Assembly (NCBI GenBank): GCA_013821455.1
Contig: JACDGS010000033.1
Location: 1 to 48,392, forward strand
Length of the DNA: 48,392 bases
Reading direction: 5' to 3'
Source of the DNA: Chthoniobacterales bacterium
GTDB taxonomy: Bacteria; Verrucomicrobiota; Verrucomicrobiia; Chthoniobacterales; UBA10450
Part shown: positions 2,429 to 48,392 of the stretch, piece after piece
Layout: each line of letters opens with the position of its first letter
Numbering within the stretch: position 1 is the first letter of the stretch
Translations under genes and position numbers: made by a program
The notes under the pieces: model-generated
Databases searched by the model: none
Told to the model about the DNA's origin: nothing
Seen by the model: the letters and a program-made list of their open reading frames with translations, nothing else

Positions 2429-4369
2429 ATGAAGCCGTCGTCCCTTGGGCTGTTCCTGGCCGCCGGCGCATTTGCCGCCGGCCTCGCAGTCGATCGTTTC
2501 GTGCTGCCGCCACGCCTAACGACCGCCAAACCAAACACGCCGGCGGCGACGTCGTTAGGCGAAACGGGATCGTCACAACCGCTCCCGCATGCGGCAGCCA
2601 AATCCGCGTCGAAGCCGAAGTCCGGCGAGACTGCCTCCGCGCCGGCTTCGGTTGCCTCCGTCATCGCGGAAATCAAAAGCGCGCTCACCATTTCCTCCGA
2701 TCGCCACGGCTACACCGAGCTGAGCAAATTGATCGACGGCCTCGCTCCCAAAGATGTCCGCGAAGTCATCGGCTCGATGCAAGCGCTGCCCAATCAGCGC
2801 CGCAAACTCATGGTTCTTTCGATGCTTTTTTCGCGCTGGGCCGATGGCGATCCGCAGGCTGCGCTCGGCTACGCGCAGACGACCGGCACGGCCTCGGAGC
2901 GAAGCATGATGATCTCGGCGACCGTTCGTTCGTGGGCGGAAAAAGATGGCGAAGCCGCGAAGGCTTACGCGCTTCAGCTCGCGCCCGGACAGGAGCGCGA
3001 GCGCGCGCTGCAATCGGTCGTCTCCGCGCTCTCGGAAAAAGATCCGCAAGCCGCGCTCAGTGTTTTGCAAGCGCTGCCCGCGAGCAATTCCGAGCGCAAC
3101 ATGTACTGGCCGATTTTTTCCAATTGGGCGAACAGCGATCCCGCGACCGCGGGCGCGCGCGCCGCGCAATTGCCGGCCGGCCCGGGTCGCGACCAGGCGA
3201 TTCAAGTGGTCGCGGCCACCTGGGCCAACTCGAATGCCGAAGCCGCCTTCGGTTGGGCGAACGCTCTTCCGCAAGGCCAGGGTCGCAATAGCGCGCTGCA
3301 AAATATTCTTTCCAATTGGGCGAACACCGATCCGCAACGCGCCGCCGGTGTGATCGCGCAATTGCCTCCCGGTTCCGCGCGCGACCAAGCCTCGGCCAAC
3401 ATCGCCCGCCGCTGGGCGCAAAACGATCCCGCCGCCGCCCTCGCGTGGACGCGCGCGCTGCCCGCGGGCGAAGGACAAAAACGTGCGCTGCAAAGCGTGC
3501 TTTCGAGTTGGTCGGAAAACGATCCAACGGCTGCGGCTGATTATGTCTCCGCACTTCCGGCTGGTCCGGCGCAGCAGGAAGCCGTGCGCTCGATCGCGCA
3601 ACAACTCGCCACCGCCGATGTGCAGGCAGCAGTAACTTGGGCGCAGAAATTTCCCGACGACGCGACGCGGCAAAGCGCGCTCAATCCGATCATCTCGCAC
3701 TGGAGCGAAACCGATCCTGGCGCCGCCGCTGATTTCACCCTGAACAATGTCCATGGTGAGATGCGCAAGAGTTTGCTCGAAACGATTTCGCGGCAATGGG
3801 CGCAAAACGATCCCCAAGCCGCGCTCGAATGGGCGCAGGGTTTATCCGACGCCAGTACGCGCACGGCGGTGATGCCCGACATCATCTCGGCCGTGGCGGA
3901 AAACGATCCGCGCGCCGCCGCGGAAATGGTGGGAAAGCTTTCCGGCGAAGCCCAAACCAACGCCGCCAGCTCCATCGCTTCGCAATGGGCGGGCAGCGAT
4001 CCTCAAGCCGCCAGCACTTGGGCCGCTTCGTTTCCGGAAGGCGCGGCGCGCAATCAGGTTTTCCAAAGTCTGATCAATCGCTGGGCCGGAAGCGACGCGA
4101 CCGCGGCAGCGACCTGGCTCGGAAGTTTGCCCGACAGTTCATCGCGCGATCAGGCTGTGAGCACTTTTACCCAGCGCATCCAAGCCTCCGATCCGCAGGC
4201 GGCAGTGCAATGGGCCTCGACAATCGGGGATCAGGGACTGCGCGACAGCCAGACGGAATCGGCCGCGCGCGCGTGGTTGAAAAACGATCCGCGCAATGCC
4301 TCGGCGTGGATCAGTAGTTCGACTTTGCCTAACGACACCAAAACGCGGCTGCTCACGCCTAACGGCTGA
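2429..4369 (+). CDS. Exported WA-x-x-DP-x-A-A repeat protein
   Basis: Protein of 646 residues with an N-terminal hydrophobic stretch (about 5-25) that looks like a signal peptide or membrane anchor, a proline/alanine-rich linker, then about 13 tandem helical repeats of 30-40 residues. Each unit follows the pattern W-A-x-x-D-P-x-A-A-x-x-W-x-x-x-L-P followed by R-x-x-A. The repeats extend from about residue 125 to the end. Similar alanine-rich repeat proteins are common in Verrucomicrobiota and Planctomycetota and are presumed to form alpha-solenoid scaffolds; I know of no assigned function. Family A palindromes isolate the gene on both sides, so it is probably monocistronic. The last codons use the dispersed motif twice (4327 and 4357). 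Confidence 0.85.
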   Translation: MKPSSLGLFLAAGAFAAGLAVDRFVLPPRLTTAKPNTPAATSLGETGSSQPLPHAAAKSASKPKSGETASAPASVASVIAEIKSALTISSDRHGYTELSKLIDGLAPKDVREVIGSMQALPNQRRKLMVLSMLFSRWADGDPQAALGYAQTTGTASERSMMISATVRSWAEKDGEAAKAYALQLAPGQERERALQSVVSALSEKDPQAALSVLQALPASNSERNMYWPIFSNWANSDPATAGARAAQLPAGPGRDQAIQVVAATWANSNAEAAFGWANALPQGQGRNSALQNILSNWANTDPQRAAGVIAQLPPGSARDQASANIARRWAQNDPAAALAWTRALPAGEGQKRALQSVLSSWSENDPTAAADYVSALPAGPAQQEAVRSIAQQLATADVQAAVTWAQKFPDDATRQSALNPIISHWSETDPGAAADFTLNNVHGEMRKSLLETISRQWAQNDPQAALEWAQGLSDASTRTAVMPDIISAVAENDPRAAAEMVGKLSGEAQTNAASSIASQWAGSDPQAASTWAASFPEGAARNQVFQSLINRWAGSDATAAATWLGSLPDSSSRDQAVSTFTQRIQASDPQAAVQWASTIGDQGLRDSQTESAARAWLKNDPRNASAWISSSTLPNDTKTRLLTPNG

Positions 4370-5518: not shown

Positions 5519-5675
5519 TCATCCCGAGTGGATCGCAGCGCAGTCGAGGGATCCCGTGGAGTTTCCTGGAAGCGCCGCTACTGAAATTGATTCGCGACCG
5601 AGCTTCACGGTCACTCTGCGGGATCCTTCAACTCCACTCCGTTCGCTTCGCTCTCTGCGCTTCGCTCAGGATGAC
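5518..5675. repeat. Family A palindromic element bridging imuB stop and dnaE2 start
   Basis: Starts with the G of the imuB-like TAG stop (TAGTCATCCCGAG) and ends CGCTCAGGATGAC. Inner arms are GAGGGATCCCGTGGAG and CTCTGCGGGATCCTTC. The ATG inside the terminal GGATGAC (5671) is the best start codon for dnaE2, so the element apparently contributes both the stop context of one gene and the start of the next. Confidence 0.82.
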
Positions 5676-8600
5676 CTACATCGAGTTGTACACTTCTAGC
5701 GCCTTCAGTTTTCTCCGTGGCGCCTCCTTCCCCGAGCAACTGGCGGAACGGGCCGCGGAATTGGAATTGCCCGCGGTCGCTTTGCTCGATCGCAACGGCG
5801 TTTACGGGGCGCAACGTTTTTCCGTGGCCTGCCGCGAGCAGGGGGTGCGCCCGATCATCGGCTCCAGCCTAACGATGGCCGATGGGAGCCTCCTCCCCGT
5901 CCTGGTGGAAAATCGCATCGGCTACAAAAACCTCTGTGGCCTTCTTACCCAGGCGCATTTGCGCAGCGAGAAAGGAACCTGCGCGGTGCGCTGGGAAGAG
6001 GTCTCGGAGTTTAGCGAAGGCTTGATCGCGTTGCTGGGGAGCGCACGCGCCTCGCGTGCTCCGTTCGGCGCCTCGCCGAACGGTCGAGCGCAGAAAGCGC
6101 ACACCTTTGCTCGCGGCGAGTCAGTCGTACGAACGATGTCCAAAAATAACTCCACCCGATCCTTGCGCCCAAGTTTGCGGCGAGGCGCCGCAAACAGCAC
6201 GCGAGGCGCGTGCGCTCCCCAGCTCGCAGAACACGCACAACGTCTGCTCAACCTCTTTGGCCGCGAACGCGTTTACGTCGAGCTGCAACGCCATCTCGTT
6301 AGGGGCGAAGAACGTCTCAATCGTCAGCTCATCGATCTCGCGGAGCATCATCGTCTTCCACTCCTCGCGACCAACGGTGTGCAGCATGCCACATCGTTAG
6401 GCCGCGAGGTGCTCGATGTTTTTACCTGCATCCGCGAGCACACCCATCTCGATGACGCCGGCACACGCCTAACGGGAAACGCCGAGCGTCATCTCAAGAG
6501 CGGGTCGGAAATGCACGAGCTCTTTCGCGACCGGCCCGACGCCCTAACGAACACGCTCCGCCTCGCCGAGCGCCTCCAATTTTCCCTCGAAAACATCGGC
6601 TACGATTTCCCCGATTATCCCGTGCCCGACGGTCATTCGATGGATTCATTCCTGCGCACGATCGTCCTCTTCGGCGCGCAACAGCGTTACGCTTCGATCA
6701 GCACAAAAGTGCAGCGGCAACTCGAGTTCGAGCTCGCACTCATCATCCGTCTTGGGTTCGCCGGTTATTTTTTGATCGTCTGGGACATCGTTAATTTCTG
6801 CCGTGAAAACGACATCATGGTCCAGGGTCGCGGGAGCGCGGCGAATAGCGCGGTTTGCTTTTGCCTCGGCATCACGCCGGTCGATCCGGTGAGCAACAAT
6901 TTGGTTTTCGAGCGTTTCCTGAGCGAAGGCCGCAAAGGCTGGCCCGACATCGATCTCGATCTCCCGAGCGGCGACCGGCGCGAGCGCGTCATCCAGGAAA
7001 TTTACCGGCGCTACGGCAAACACGGCGCGGCCATGACCGCGAACGTGATCACTTATCGCGGGAAAAGCGCGGCGCGCGAGATCGGCAAGGCGCTCCATTT
7101 CGCGCCGAACATTCTCGATCGCTTCTCGCATCTTTTTGCGAATGGCGATTTCCCGCACACGCTCGATCTCCAGGCGCAGATCGAGCAGGCCGGTTTGCCG
7201 AACGAACATCCGCGCATGCCGGCGTTCGTTAGGCTGTACCGCGCCATCTACGGGCTGCCGCGTCATCTCGGGCAGCACTCGGGCGGGATGATTATTTGCC
7301 AGAATAAACTCAGCTCCTTCGTGCCGCTAGAGAACGCGTCGATGCCGGGCCGCGTGGTCGCGCAATGGGACAAGGACGACTGCGAAGATCTTGGAATCGT
7401 GAAGGTCGATTTGCTCGGCCTCGGCATGATGGCGGTGATGCAGGACACTTTCACGCTCTGCCGCGAACGCGGCCGGCCACTCGATCTCGCGCATCTGCCG
7501 AAGGACGACGCGGCCACGTTCGAGCTGATGCAGAAGGCGGACACGATTGGTGTTTTCCAAATCGAGAGCCGTGCGCAAATGGCGACGCTGCCGCGGATGA
7601 AGCCGAAGGAATTTTACGATGTCGTGATCGAGGTCGCGATTATTCGGCCGGGGCCGATTCAAGGCGACATGGTCCATCCGTATCTCGCGCGGCGCGCGGG
7701 CAAGGAGCCGGTCACGTATTTCGACGAGCGGCTCGAACCAGTGCTGGCGCGAACGTTAGGCGTGCCGCTTTTTCAAGAGCAGATGCTGAAGATCGCGATG
7801 ATCGTGGCCGATTTTTCCGGCGCGGAAGCGGAAGAGTTGCGGCGCGCGCTCAGCTTTCATCGTTCGCAGGACCGGATGGAAAAAGTGAGTGTAAAGCTGC
7901 GCGCGGCGATGGAAAAAAACGGCGTCGCCCCGGATGCGATCGCGAAAATTTTGCAATCGATCACTTCTTTTGCGCTCTATGGATTTCCGGAATCGCACGC
8001 GATCAGTTTTGCCATTCTCGCCTATGGCAGCGCCTATTTGAAAGTGCATCGCGCGGCGGAGTTTTACGCCTGCCTGCTGAACAATCAGCCGATGGGTTTT
8101 TATGCCCCGGCCACGATCGTGAAAGACGCGTGGCGGCATGGGATTCGGATGCGGCCGGTTTGCGCGGCGGTGTCGCAATGGCACTGCGTGGTGGAGTCGG
8201 ATGAAGTCGTTAGGCTGGGCTTTTGTGTGGTGAACGGATTGCGGCAGGAGCATGCCGAAGAACTCGTTAGGCAACGGCCTTTTACTTCGTTAGGCGATTT
8301 GAAGGAACGTGTTGGCCTAACGAAAGAGGAATTACGCACTCTCGCCGAGCTCGGGGCGTTTAACTGCTTCGCCGAACATCGTCGGGCGGCGCTCTGGGAA
8401 GTAGAGGAGCCGCGGCATAACGATCTGCTCGCGCGCGCGGAAGCTGACGCGCCGGGGAGCGCACGCGCCCCGCGTGCTGGTTTCTGCGCCTCGCAGAAAC
8501 GAACTTTCCTCTGCGGCGACGTGCTCGGAAAAGTTCGTGATGGCGAGGGCGCCATCACCAGCACGCGAGGCGCGTGCGCTCCCCGGAGTTCGCCGCTCGC

Positions 8601-9018
8601 GCCGATGACTTTAGCGGAGCGGGTGCAGGCCGATTACGCCGGGATGAGCCTAACGACGGGACCGCATCCGATGAAATTGCTGCGGGCGCAATTGCCTGAC
8701 GTCTGGCGGGCGAGCGATCTCGCGCAGGCGCGCCACGGGGCGACGGTGCAGATCGCGGGGAATGTCATTTGCCGTCAGCGGCCCGGAACGGCAAAGGGCT
8801 TTGTCTTCGTTAGTCTGGAGGATGAGACGGGCGTTTCGAATGCGATCGTGACGCCGGATTTATTCGAGCGGATGCGGCTGCTTATTACGGAGGAGCCGTT
8901 TCTGCTGATCGAAGGCGTGGTGCAGAACACGGAGAACGTGGTCATCGTGAAGGCGCGGAAAATTCAGCCGCTGCCGCACGCGCAACTCGGCGGAAGCGAG
9001 TCGCATGATTTTCATTAA
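5671..9018 (+). CDS. dnaE2: Error-prone DNA polymerase DnaE2 with two in-frame palindrome insertions
   Basis: C-family polymerase alpha subunit of the DnaE2 type, which performs damage-induced translesion synthesis with ImuA/ImuB. The product has 1115 residues from ATG 5671. It opens with the PHP domain (YIELYTSSAFSFLRGASFPE), carries the catalytic acidic motif PDIDLD near residue 428, the GRGSAANS motif before it and the RRALSFHRS region later, and ends in an OB-fold with the DnaE2-like GMSLTTGPHPM segment. Two stretches, residues about 122-184 and 928-972, are encoded by inverted repeats (6034-6222 and 8452-8586); removing them leaves about 1007 residues, normal for DnaE2. Both inserts are multiples of three and contain no stop. 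The gene also holds about ten GTTAGGC words. Confidence 0.94.
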   Translation: MTYIELYTSSAFSFLRGASFPEQLAERAAELELPAVALLDRNGVYGAQRFSVACREQGVRPIIGSSLTMADGSLLPVLVENRIGYKNLCGLLTQAHLRSEKGTCAVRWEEVSEFSEGLIALLGSARASRAPFGASPNGRAQKAHTFARGESVVRTMSKNNSTRSLRPSLRRGAANSTRGACAPQLAEHAQRLLNLFGRERVYVELQRHLVRGEERLNRQLIDLAEHHRLPLLATNGVQHATSLGREVLDVFTCIREHTHLDDAGTRLTGNAERHLKSGSEMHELFRDRPDALTNTLRLAERLQFSLENIGYDFPDYPVPDGHSMDSFLRTIVLFGAQQRYASISTKVQRQLEFELALIIRLGFAGYFLIVWDIVNFCRENDIMVQGRGSAANSAVCFCLGITPVDPVSNNLVFERFLSEGRKGWPDIDLDLPSGDRRERVIQEIYRRYGKHGAAMTANVITYRGKSAAREIGKALHFAPNILDRFSHLFANGDFPHTLDLQAQIEQAGLPNEHPRMPAFVRLYRAIYGLPRHLGQHSGGMIICQNKLSSFVPLENASMPGRVVAQWDKDDCEDLGIVKVDLLGLGMMAVMQDTFTLCRERGRPLDLAHLPKDDAATFELMQKADTIGVFQIESRAQMATLPRMKPKEFYDVVIEVAIIRPGPIQGDMVHPYLARRAGKEPVTYFDERLEPVLARTLGVPLFQEQMLKIAMIVADFSGAEAEELRRALSFHRSQDRMEKVSVKLRAAMEKNGVAPDAIAKILQSITSFALYGFPESHAISFAILAYGSAYLKVHRAAEFYACLLNNQPMGFYAPATIVKDAWRHGIRMRPVCAAVSQWHCVVESDEVVRLGFCVVNGLRQEHAEELVRQRPFTSLGDLKERVGLTKEELRTLAELGAFNCFAEHRRAALWEVEEPRHNDLLARAEADAPGSARAPRAGFCASQKRTFLCGDVLGKVRDGEGAITSTRGACAPRSSPLAPMTLAERVQADYAGMSLTTGPHPMKLLRAQLPDVWRASDLAQARHGATVQIAGNVICRQRPGTAKGFVFVSLEDETGVSNAIVTPDLFERMRLLITEEPFLLIEGVVQNTENVVIVKARKIQPLPHAQLGGSESHDFH
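6034..6222. repeat. Family B palindromic element translated in dnaE2 (first insertion)
   Basis: Perfect 27-bp terminal inverted repeats: the left arm at 6034-6060 begins CTGGGGAGCGCACGCG, and the right arm at 6196-6222 is its exact reverse complement. Further short hairpins lie inside (TTCGGCG...CGCCGAA near 6063-6082). Total 189 bp, exactly 63 codons, starting on a codon boundary. The encoded peptide begins [17 protein letters not shown] and has no counterpart in the DnaE2 family as I know it. Confidence 0.9.
8452..8586. repeat. Family B palindromic element translated in dnaE2 (second insertion)
   Basis: Inverted repeats of 29 bp with one mismatch (8452-8480 and 8558-8586), the arm sharing GGGGAGCGCACGCGCC with the 6034 element. 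Internal hairpin GTTTCTGCG / CGCAGAAAC. Length 135 bp, 45 codons, in frame. It is read as GSARAPRAGFCASQKR and onward, just before the C-terminal OB-fold of DnaE2. Confidence 0.88.
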
Positions 9019-9029
9019 ACAAAAGATTT

Positions 9030-9191
9030 GTCATCCCGAGCCGGCGCAGCGCGGCGCGGGATCCCACAAGCGTCCGCAACGGCCCCATCCCAAATTGCTT
9101 TTAGAGCGTCTCGCACCAGGTCGTTAGGCAAAATGCTAACCGTTCGGACGCTTGCGGGATCCCTCGCCGCGCTGCGCCGGCTCGGGATGAC
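9030..9191. repeat. Family A palindromic element between dnaE2 and fmdB-like gene
   Basis: One of the best-formed copies. It starts GTCATCCCGAGCCGGCGCAG and ends CTGCGCCGGCTCGGGATGAC, which are exact reverse complements over 20 bases. Inner arms are GCGGGATCCCACAAGCGTCC / GGACGCTTGCGGGATCCCTC. The interior contains GTTAGGC (9123-9129) and a near-copy GCTAACCG. It separates the convergent 3' ends of dnaE2 and the fmdB-like gene and could act as a bidirectional terminator. Confidence 0.9.
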
Positions 9192-9200
9192 AGGTTTAGT

Positions 9201-32952: not shown

Positions 32953-33006
32953 CTGGGGAGCGCACGCGCCCCCGCGTGCCCTCTTTGGCGCCCTCGCCGA
33001 AGAGTC
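32953..33006. repeat. Solitary half of a family B element
   Basis: CTGGGGAGCGCACGCGCC followed by CCCGCGTGCC and a second hairpin GGCGCCCTCGCC. The start matches the arms of the dnaE2 insertions, but here it is intergenic and without the right arm. Located between the amidase and FGE-domain genes. Confidence 0.7.
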
Positions 33007-44047: not shown

Positions 44048-46512
44048 GCGCGGCGAACTCTAGTTCTGGGGAGCACGGGCTGTCAGCCCGTTGGTCGGCG
44101 GAGTCTCCGCCGACGAACTTTTGCCGGGCGAAGGTCTCTCGATTGCTTTGGCGCGAAGGAAAAGGCCGCGATGGGAGGCTCCCATCGCCAACGGGCTGGC
44201 AGCCCGTGCTCCCCAAACGAAGAGTCTTTCTCGCGGCGCTTTTGCTAGTCATCGTCCTTTGCTCGTTAGGCTGGCTCTGTCTCCCCAAACCGCCCCTCAT
44301 GGACAACGTCAGCTTCTCCCACCGCGTCTTCGATCGCGACGGCCACCCGCTGCGAATGACTCTCAGTCGAGACGACAAGTATCGCGTCTTCACTCCGCTC
44401 GATCACATCTCCCCGCAGCTCGTCCAAGCCACCATCCTGCACGAAGATCGCTTCTTCGCCGACCACCCCGGCGTAAACCCGATCGCGGTCGCGCGTGCGG
44501 CCTGGTATTTCGCGCGCGGCGAAAAGCGCGGCGGCGCTTCCACCATCACGATGCAATTGGCGCGCCTAACGACGCACCTGCGCACCCGTACTCTCCGCGG
44601 CAAGTGCGCGCAAATGCTGCGCGCGCTGGAGTTCGAGCGTCATTATTCGAAGTCCCAACTCCTCGAAGCCTATCTGAATCTCGCGCCCTACGGTCGCAAC
44701 ATCGAAGGCGTCGGCGCCGCCAGCCAAATCTACTTCGGCAAGGAACCGGCCCAGCTCACGCTCCACGAAGCGATCGCGCTGAGCTTGATTCCACAAAGTC
44801 CTTCGCGCCGCGCCCTGCGCGCGACTAACCAACCCACAGCCAGGGTCGAAGCGCGCGACCACCTTTACGAACGCCTAACGAGTAAAGGAGACGCGCTCGA
44901 CAGGGCATTCGTCGCGAGCGCGCGGGAAAAGCCACAGCTGCTCGCGCCTCATTTCACGACGCAAGTCTTAGGCGAGACGAACGAGCGCGAAATTCACACC
45001 ACACTCGATCTCGCTCTGCAGCGTCTCGTCGAGCACCGCGTCGCCGATTACGTCGCGGAGAATCGCGGCCGCGGAATCCACAATGCGGCAGCCATGCTGA
45101 TCGACTCGCGGAGCATGGAAGTGCTCGCGCAGGTCGGCTCCGCGAACTTCTCCGACGCTGCGATCAACGGTCAGGTCGATGGCACGCGCAGTCCCCGCTC
45201 GCCGGGCTCGACGCTCAAGCCGTTCATCTACGCACTCGCGCTTGACCAGGGGCTGATTCATCCCCTCACGATGCTGAAGGACGCGCCGCGCAGCTTCGGC
45301 GCCTTCGATCCAGAGAATTTCGATCGCGAATTTGTTGGTCCCATCAAAGCAACCGACGCACTCGCGCGCAGCCGCAACATTCCCGCGGTCACTCTTGCCT
45401 CGGAGCTGCGAGGGCCAACGCTCTACGGATTCCTGCGACGAGCAGGCGTGCAGTTGCCGCAGGATGAAAAATTCTACGGACTCGCCCTCCCGCTCGGTGG
45501 TGCAGAGATCACGATGGAGGATCTCGTTAGGCTGTATGCGATGCTGGCGCATGGCGGAGAGCTGAGGCCGTTGCGGCGCACTGGGAACGGCGGTTTAAAA
45601 CCGCCGCTCCGGGTCGTTACCCCCGAGTCAGCTTTCCTCACTCTGGAAATGCTCGGCCAAATCCCGCGACCAGGCATGAGCGCGTCTGCGCCTAACGATC
45701 CCATCTTCTGGAAAACCGGCACCTCCCAAGGATTCCACGATGCCTGGTCGGTCGCAGTCTTCGATCATTACGTGCTCGCCGTCTGGGTCGGAAATTTTAA
45801 CGGAAAAAGCAATCCCGCTTTTGTCGGGCGCAGTTGCGCCGCGCCATTGCTCTTCCAAGTCGTGGACGCGATGCATGCGACCGGTCGCGCGCGCGCCACT
45901 CCACACCAACCGCCGCCGAACGCGAATCTGCGGCGCGTGGAATTCTGCGCGGTCTCCGGAGAACTGCCGACCGCGGCTTGCACCCATCGCGTCACCGGAT
46001 GGTTCATCCCGGGCGTATCGCCGATTAGTCAGTGCGACATTCACCGCGAGATCCTGACCGATGATCTTACCGGCTTGCGCGTGAATGCCGACGACGGCAC
46101 GCGCAAGGTCCATCGCGAGGTTTACGAATTCTGGCCCTCGGAGTTACTCGCGCTTTTCGAGCAGGCCGGACTGCCGCGCCGCACGCCGCCGCCGTTTCTG
46201 CCCGGAGACGCCGTTGAGTCACTCGCCCGCCGCGGCCGGCCGCCGCATATCGTCTCGCCCAAGAACAACGTCCTTTACTCGTTAGGCGACGGCGCCGCCG
46301 GGCGCGCGCTCAGCCTGCGAGCCGAGACCGAGCCGGATGTGCAGCGCCTCTATTGGTTTGCCGGCCGCACTTTTCTCGGTACGAGCCAGCGCGACACGCC
46401 ACTTTCCTGGAAGCCGGATCCCGGGAGTTACAAGGTCATCGCGCTCGACGATCACGGCCGCTCCGATACTTGCGCCGTGACTTTTGCGGCCGCGGAGTCG
46501 AGTGCGCGCTAG
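44044..46512 (+). CDS. pbpC: Penicillin-binding protein 1C
   Basis: Bifunctional peptidoglycan synthase of 822 residues. It has an N-terminal membrane helix (FLAALLLVIVLCSLGWL, about 61-77), a GT51 glycosyltransferase domain (LHEDRFFADHPGVNP; GGASTITMQLARL), a transpeptidase with SPGSTLKPF, SRN (ARSRNIPAV) and KTGTSQGFHDAW, then the BiPBP_C domain at the C terminus (YSLGDGAAGRALSLRAETEPD). The start ATG overlaps the A2M stop. Cytoplasmic residues about 9-58 are encoded by a large palindromic element (44067-44215), and a second short palindrome encodes NGGLKPPL before the KTG motif. A longer frame beginning at 43846 lies within A2M and is rejected. Confidence 0.94.
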   Translation: MSAANSSSGEHGLSARWSAESPPTNFCRAKVSRLLWREGKGRDGRLPSPTGWQPVLPKRRVFLAALLLVIVLCSLGWLCLPKPPLMDNVSFSHRVFDRDGHPLRMTLSRDDKYRVFTPLDHISPQLVQATILHEDRFFADHPGVNPIAVARAAWYFARGEKRGGASTITMQLARLTTHLRTRTLRGKCAQMLRALEFERHYSKSQLLEAYLNLAPYGRNIEGVGAASQIYFGKEPAQLTLHEAIALSLIPQSPSRRALRATNQPTARVEARDHLYERLTSKGDALDRAFVASAREKPQLLAPHFTTQVLGETNEREIHTTLDLALQRLVEHRVADYVAENRGRGIHNAAAMLIDSRSMEVLAQVGSANFSDAAINGQVDGTRSPRSPGSTLKPFIYALALDQGLIHPLTMLKDAPRSFGAFDPENFDREFVGPIKATDALARSRNIPAVTLASELRGPTLYGFLRRAGVQLPQDEKFYGLALPLGGAEITMEDLVRLYAMLAHGGELRPLRRTGNGGLKPPLRVVTPESAFLTLEMLGQIPRPGMSASAPNDPIFWKTGTSQGFHDAWSVAVFDHYVLAVWVGNFNGKSNPAFVGRSCAAPLLFQVVDAMHATGRARATPHQPPPNANLRRVEFCAVSGELPTAACTHRVTGWFIPGVSPISQCDIHREILTDDLTGLRVNADDGTRKVHREVYEFWPSELLALFEQAGLPRRTPPPFLPGDAVESLARRGRPPHIVSPKNNVLYSLGDGAAGRALSLRAETEPDVQRLYWFAGRTFLGTSQRDTPLSWKPDPGSYKVIALDDHGRSDTCAVTFAAAESSAR
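44067..44215. repeat. Palindromic element translated at the N terminus of PbpC
   Basis: Inverted repeats of 28 bp with one mismatch (44067-44094 / 44188-44215), the outer part reading TGGGGAGCACGGGCTG. Two internal perfect hairpins are GTCGGCGGA-GTC-TCCGCCGAC and GCGATGGGA-GGC-TCCCATCGC. The outer TGGGGAGC matches the family B terminus; the rest differs, so it is a relative or a separate family. Confidence 0.88.
44254..44271 (+). repeat. Extended motif copy in pbpC with one substitution
   Basis: GTCCTTTGCTCGTTAGGC, differing from the other extended copies by A to G. It encodes part of the membrane helix (VLCSLGW). Confidence 0.65.
44873..44889 (-). repeat. Extended motif copy in pbpC
   Basis: The reverse complement of TCCTTTACTCGTTAGGC (17 bases). 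It is translated RLTSKG in the linker after the GT51 domain. Confidence 0.75.
45588..45606. repeat. Short palindrome translated in PbpC
   Basis: CGGCGGTTTAAAACCGCCG, 9-bp arms around a single base. With flanking bases it is read GNGGLKPPLR, between LRPLRR and VVTPESAFLT of the transpeptidase domain; this looks like a local addition to a surface loop. Confidence 0.7.
46270..46287 (+). repeat. Extended motif copy in pbpC C-terminal domain
   Basis: GTCCTTTACTCGTTAGGC, 18 bases identical to the other long copies. It is translated VLYSLG, that is, in a different reading frame from the SLTSKG copies. Confidence 0.8.

Positions 46513-47320: not shown

Positions 47321-48392
<1,072 letters not shown>

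Follow-up and report, generated by a model that had tools for sequence, protein, structure and literature searches.

An in-frame REPIN-like palindrome in the error-prone polymerase DnaE2 and RAYT-type transposases embedded in core proteins of Verrucomicrobiota

The 189-bp palindromic insert that lies in-frame within the dnaE2 gene of a soil Chthoniobacterales bacterium is probably a REPIN-like element copied by a RAYT-type transposase, the cognate and sister transposases of which are themselves embedded in-frame, and retained, in core host proteins. On balance, these transposases also seem to represent a class of transposon living as translated domains of essential proteins; the hairpins would serve both as HUH signals and as linker codons, start, stop and promoter of their own would be absent, expression and retention would be borrowed from the host, and coding-compatible palindromes, as in dnaE2, would be seeded in the process. 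The residence of the embedded transposases, as judged from their sequences, appears intein-like, without splicing. The window, i.e. the whole stretch of DNA analysed (48,392 nucleotides), is contig C48 of a 4.3-Mb genome assembled in 117 contigs; the embedded transposases of this genome have homologues that place it in Verrucomicrobiota, close to Chthoniobacterales.

Anatomy of the DnaE2 insert

The features of dnaE2 and its first element are as follows.

5671 to 9018, plus strand: dnaE2, error-prone DNA polymerase, host of two in-frame elements (open reading frame open from 5587; ATG at 5671 the likely start)
6034 to 6222, no strand assigned: REPIN-like palindromic element, 189 bp, in-frame in the PHP region of DnaE2 (from arms, open frame, loops of relatives and folding)
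6034 to 6060, plus strand: left outer arm, CTGGGGAGC plus a 7-bp stem-loop, member of a genome-wide arm family
6061 to 6083, no strand assigned: left inner hairpin, CCGTTCGGCGCCTCGCCGAACGG
6173 to 6195, no strand assigned: right inner hairpin, GTTTGCGGCGAGGCGCCGCAAAC
6196 to 6222, minus strand: right outer arm, repeating the left arm perfectly in inverted orientation

The outer arms (CTGGGGAGCGCACGCGCCTCGCGTGCT) lie at 6034-6060 and 6196-6222 and form an inverted repeat of 27 nt without mismatch; each is followed by a different second hairpin (6061-6083 and 6173-6195), and the full 189 nt, or 63 codons, are free of stops in the dnaE2 frame; an earlier note, made from the sequence alone, had described the insert with the same coordinates and open frame. 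As single-stranded DNA the element folds with z = -11.1 compared with dinucleotide shuffles. The peptide encoded by the arms is a linker of small residues (GSARASRA ... STRGACAPQ).

That the insert lies in a conserved polymerase, as the earlier note held, is upheld, DnaE2 scoring 1174.8 bits with the NCBIfam model for error-prone polymerases, PRK05672 (cut-off 939), which rules out the gene being a pseudogene. Its assignment to the PHP-to-palm part of the protein does not hold, because alignment with E. coli-type Pol III alpha of solved structure breaks off near residue 136 and is taken up again at 165, which puts the site in a loop inside the PHP region. The insert is probably tolerated because its arms, read as xxG GGG AGC, contain no stop, because they encode a small-residue linker and because the loop is permissive.

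When relatives were searched with the insert removed from the DnaE2 query, seven aligned without a large gap, having a loop of only 12-48 nt at this position, and nine or more were interrupted at the same site. For eight relatives the complete insert could be read; it is palindromic and 78-171 nt long, and in every case its length is a multiple of three. These inserts belong to at least four different arm families and sit at offsets of 0 to about 27 nt, from which it can be concluded that the DnaE2 loop is a repeated target, at which in-frame outcomes alone are seen. The comparison confirms that the segment is an insertion. Since the relatives have a palindrome at this position wherever the loop is not short, a lineage-specific protein insertion of the ordinary kind, lacking palindromes, is ruled out. 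Neither of the two observations that would have counted against the earlier note was made: the segment did not turn up in distant DnaE2 proteins without the DNA palindrome, and the gene is intact.

The arm family and its short elements

Elsewhere in the window, the following related features are present.

8452 to 8586, no strand assigned: another in-frame dnaE2 element, from the same family as the first, located towards the C-terminus of the polymerase (arms 8454-8478 and 8560-8584)
32955 to 32977, plus strand: lone degenerate arm in a gap between open reading frames
44066 to 44217, no strand assigned: in the N-terminal tail of a pbpC-like gene, element belonging to a related arm family (GGGGAGCACGGGCTGTCAGCCCGT), with its arm in another phase
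47969 to 48018, plus strand: single arm plus inner hairpin, in-frame in thiC, same arm reading frame

A search of the whole genome with a 25-nt arm pattern, allowing up to 3 mismatches, gave 51 plus 59 matches, i.e. at least 110, and none with the reversed control, so that the count is far above chance. Among the copies listed there are about 42 paired elements, the outer arms of which mostly span 112-185 nt, together with single arms, which in many cases lie at contig ends. Each arm has a foot, which is GGGGAGC here and GGGTAGC in a second family, and then a stem-loop of 7 bp; the ends of the elements extend to TCYGGGGAGC. Paired arms are inverted around a variable spacer, within which two further hairpins are often found. 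The short elements have REPIN architecture.

The 189-bp element has a sole sibling, which lies upstream of a prpD-like gene (C72:100472-100656) and has a spacer that is 88% identical. In a search confined to the genus for a larger source gene, the 135-nt spacer was found complete at two places in this genome and in none of four congeners; the element was thus copied as a unit, and the proposal that it is mobile or copied is borne out.

In-frame elements occur inside several conserved genes, i.e. dnaE2 (twice), uvrA, the helicase gene hrpB and a glycosidase gene, and thiC carries a single arm; in all six cases the arm phase is xxG GGG AGC. The parallel with Rickettsia palindromic elements drawn in the earlier note is therefore apt. 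The same left arm had been reported there in thiC and in a non-coding gap; the former is correct, with one arm and an inner hairpin, and the latter is probably the imperfect arm at 32955.

It might be argued that both the in-frame elements and the transposases described below are neutral survivors of random insertion, with no adaptation to coding sequence. Most short elements of this genome do sit outside genes, and the arms are free of stops in all three frames, but passive survival would not account for the dominance of one arm phase (59 of 61 copies by a strict motif and 60 of 73 by a looser one), and this reading is considered improbable. The phase is a preference; a fixed phase without exception is ruled out by the element in the pbpC-like gene, which belongs to the other arm family and is in phase 0, and by some of the loose-motif copies.

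Other repeats are also present in the window. The 9-mer TCGTTAGGC occurs 74 times, throughout positions 718-48039, where base composition would predict 0.4. In the whole genome there are 4605 copies, split 2299 to 2306 between the strands, compared with 62 of the reversed control; it is a dense, strand-balanced motif resembling a DNA uptake sequence. A separate intergenic repeat family, TGTCATCCCGAGC...GGGATCCC...GGGATGACA, forms inverted pairs at 9029-9192 and also at 138, 2252, 4421, 5516, 19133, 26186 and 35284. The open reading frame at 2429-4369 contains a repeat with a period of 96 nt (32 residues) and is matched by no NCBIfam model.

Y1 transposases embedded in host genes

Eight matches to Y1_Tnp were found in this genome, two of which lie exactly between arms, one in metH (on C56) and one in recG (on C13). 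The metH-embedded transposase has the same arm as the dnaE2 insert and lies in an open frame of 1134 codons; that in recG has GGGTAGC arms and an open frame of 905 codons; a carB-embedded transposase has a 55-nt terminal repeat that is 98% complementary. In all three genes the host sequence resumes before any stop is reached.

A profile built from the metH and recG transposases, with the homologue list drawn using the motifs of embedded copies, gave 79 loci with organism names, essentially all of them from Verrucomicrobiota and neighbours. Matches were found in 80 of the 83 genomes of the family, and the frames are almost never broken. Hosts were identified by BLAST, Pfam and NCBIfam, most host parts scoring above equivalog cut-offs. 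As judged from the flanks, the host sites are in alaS (two sites), recG (one), metH (two), thrS and priA; the carB-type subfamily occupies one carB site in those sampled genomes with a carB host, and is also found in tsaC and valS. An even sample of the phylum (288 genomes, nearly all at least 90% complete) adds ispG and a further metH site.

The transposases are not separate genes with their own start and stop: 93 of 100 unique close homologue domains are in frames longer than 400 aa, and an ATG is present within 25 codons upstream of the domain in just 9 of the 100. In the phylum sample, all eight strong matches are in frames of 730-1316 aa and come from few genomes, so that the subfamily is patchy in its distribution but typically embedded. 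Random insertion would leave only a minority of copies in-frame and in the sense direction, and these proportions, like the arm phase, argue against passive survival. In other genomes, terminal arms flank most of the embedded copies.

Several individual loci deserve mention. One AlaS (L109) has two transposase domains at two different sites within a frame of 1540 codons. The carB/tsaC/valS subfamily (L232, L233, L077) has arms of its own, which translate into GFQP...DADAT peptides in tsaC and GFQPDSADG in carB. In this genome a short element (C56:72015-72171, L055) splits metH between its homocysteine and pterin domains, with a stop and then an ATG inside the element; at this same boundary, relatives have a full transposase. 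A further Y1 transposase, with 23-nt terminal repeats (L078, 1410-1949), lies between hisC and mnmE, in a frame continuous with the end of hisC.

Most of the relatives are metagenome assemblies and contigs often end at arms, so that joining of transposase contigs to host genes during assembly or binning has to be considered. Such an artefact is scarcely credible given that the same junctions are seen in independent projects and have diverged at silent sites much as the host genes have, that the frames are almost never broken and that there is one locus per genome.

Integrity, selection and structure of the fusions

Nearly all genomes of the family have one over-threshold recG locus, and the RecG frame lengths are bimodal, being 686-804 codons without the insert and 839-989 with it. 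The frames without insert are open and occur in many genomes, close relatives included; residence in recG is therefore not obligatory. In all 18 genomes with an alaS insert, AlaS is encoded at one locus only and is interrupted in-frame; in one of the 18, an Ereboglobus isolate, there is a contig break at the element. The fusion protein would presumably be made and kept as one chain.

Most pairwise dN/dS values of the transposase domain fall in the range 0.05-0.18 and are close to those of the host flanks, as is the silent divergence; the embedded domain is thus, on this comparison, evidently under purifying selection, like its host, which is a further point against neutral survival. The HUH and Y---NP catalytic motif of TnpA_REP/RAYT (class 2 TnpA_Y1, the signature of which was taken from PMC6006769) is present; among the 100 copies, conservation is at least 97% for the catalytic H, H and Y and 100% for NP.

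The domain was modelled alone (pLDDT 91), since a Foldseek search with the whole RecG fusion gave RecG, Mfd and other helicases and was uninformative with respect to the insert. The best Foldseek match of the isolated domain is 4er8, the TnpA_REP of E. coli, which is also matched by hmmsearch (2.3e-5); superposition of the two structures gave a Z of 14.0 and an rmsd of 2.5 over 135. In the RecG fusion model (mean pLDDT 69, pTM 0.48) a well-predicted domain lies between two disordered linkers of pLDDT 25-45, and with such scores its placement is unreliable. Of 14 fusions with a match to NF047646 (REP-associated tyrosine transposase, cut-off 80 bits), seven reach 80 bits and the others score 60-80.

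Inteins typically reside in-frame in conserved core genes and at conserved sites. The insertion sites described here are likewise the same across genomes, and it could be imagined that the insert is cut out or otherwise processed away, leaving a mature host enzyme without it. This is very improbable: Pfam analysis of the scanned fusions found host domains and Y1_Tnp alone, with no Hint/splicing domain and no HTH, and at the fusion junctions there are variable linkers of low complexity, in which A, G, S, T and P together make up 61% (left linker) and 49% (right linker), compared with 35% in the host. Protein splicing as the main reading is ruled out by the lack of a splicing domain.

Mobility and history of the transposases

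In this genome (G000) the recG arms carry the variant CAT, which is shared with 23 of 23 dispersed arms, and in genome G040 the recG arm variant is CAC, shared with 29 of 31; both counts include the recG arms themselves. In the congener G042 the dispersed arms are mixed, most being CAT, and the recG copy has CAC on one side, so that the matching of arms to transposases is imperfect and suggestive only. In a tree of the 100 domains the host label changes 12 times, compared with 48.8 in shuffles, and the history that this outlines is, from the sequences, one of long vertical residence with occasional host jumps.

The clustering by host site, the host-like dN/dS and the conservation of the recG and alaS sites across wide groups would also be expected had the Y1 domains been domesticated as accessory domains of RecG, AlaS and other proteins, with a function for the host such as single-strand processing; the palindromes, that in dnaE2 included, would then be old leftovers. 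Domestication is the alternative to be taken most seriously, though it is judged unlikely, since related domains are spread over nine or more unrelated host genes and have changed host several times on the tree, terminal repeats are kept at the DNA level around most copies, arms match dispersed elements of the same genome, and recG is empty in many close relatives.

Proposed mechanism

The preferred reading, i.e. copying by embedded RAYT-type transposases, may be set out as follows. The dnaE2 insert would be a non-autonomous element, comprising two inverted REP-like arms (a GGAG/GTAG-type foot plus stem-loop) around a variable spacer; a RAYT-type Y1 (HUH) transposase probably placed this copy in dnaE2 by way of single-stranded DNA. 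The likely cognate enzyme is that embedded in metH, which has the same arms; sisters with arms of their own would be those in recG and carB. While carried on the host protein, the transposase domain would recognise the foot of the hairpin on single-stranded DNA, as E. coli TnpA_REP does (PMC3733652), and would copy or move short arm pairs; we infer that it may cut and move arms in this way, mobilising them in trans. Insertions within genes would survive just when they are in-frame and in loops.

Because the cassette has no stop and no conserved start, the transposase would be made solely as a tethered domain of the core host protein. The genes alaS, valS, thrS, tsaC and ispG are essential, and retention is presumed to operate through host essentiality, since imprecise loss of a cassette would break a core protein; this may explain why cassettes are kept over the long term.

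Relation to known systems

The dnaE2 insert by itself is of a kind already described. Di Nocera et al. 2013 (PMC3733652) found that the verrucomicrobium Opitutus terrae has the most intragenic GTAG palindromes, which are in-frame, and list error-prone DnaE2 among REP-tagged proteins; the earlier note's statement that no such report was known for this group has to be corrected in this respect. With these REPs and with Rickettsia palindromic elements, the present elements share the in-frame translation of short palindromes in many genes (and, with the former, DnaE2 as a host), but they differ in arm sequence and host, and in that linked transposases are here embedded too. The likeness to the Rickettsia elements is one of way of life, i.e. 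residence in-frame in unrelated functional proteins.

The likeness to REPINs/BIMEs (RAYT, TnpA_REP) includes the inverted stem-loop pairs with a short variable spacer, the tagged foot, the many copies, and the HUH plus Y---NP motif and 4er8 fold of the transposase. As to the foot itself, GTAG is contained in the GGGTAGC arms of the recG family, and the arm family of the dnaE2 insert (GGGGAGC) has GGAG. By contrast with REPINs, some copies are in-frame inside genes, and the transposase lies within host genes without start or stop. TIRYTs/TIRtrons (PMC3733652) similarly have a Y1 transposase between terminal inverted repeats starting with GGGG, with dispersed TIR families; the arms GGGGAGCG/GGGGAGCA differ from the TIRtron motif GGGGWSAS at one or two positions. 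TIRYTs were, however, published as separate genes, mostly with a C-terminal HTH extension, whereas those described here are in-frame in core genes, with no HTH found.

Inteins are comparable as mobile coding units lying in-frame at conserved sites of essential proteins, but here there is no splicing domain, an HUH transposase takes the place of the homing endonuclease and the domain seemingly remains part of its host protein. The coding palindromes of Nematomorpha mitochondria (PMC6649704) are also long, perfect inverted repeats in protein genes, and differ in being mitochondrial. In the literature, mostly openly accessible papers, no relevant report of in-frame RAYTs in synthetases or other core genes was found, and the in-frame, stopless residence of transposases in core proteins is new as far as we can find.

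Implications

The long-term survival of selfish DNA usually relies on an autonomous gene or on a splicing trick. The transposases described here seem to persist as part of proteins that the cell cannot lose (alanyl- and valyl-tRNA synthetases, TsaC, IspG and CarB). If true, this would add a third way of persisting to those of inteins and introns, and would make the question of how RAYTs are maintained directly testable. It also suggests an origin for the coding-compatible palindromes of this phylum, and a reason why surveys could miss embedded transposases, one census of the transposase family having excluded proteins that were longer than expected, which it took for gene fusions or annotation errors (PMC6006769).
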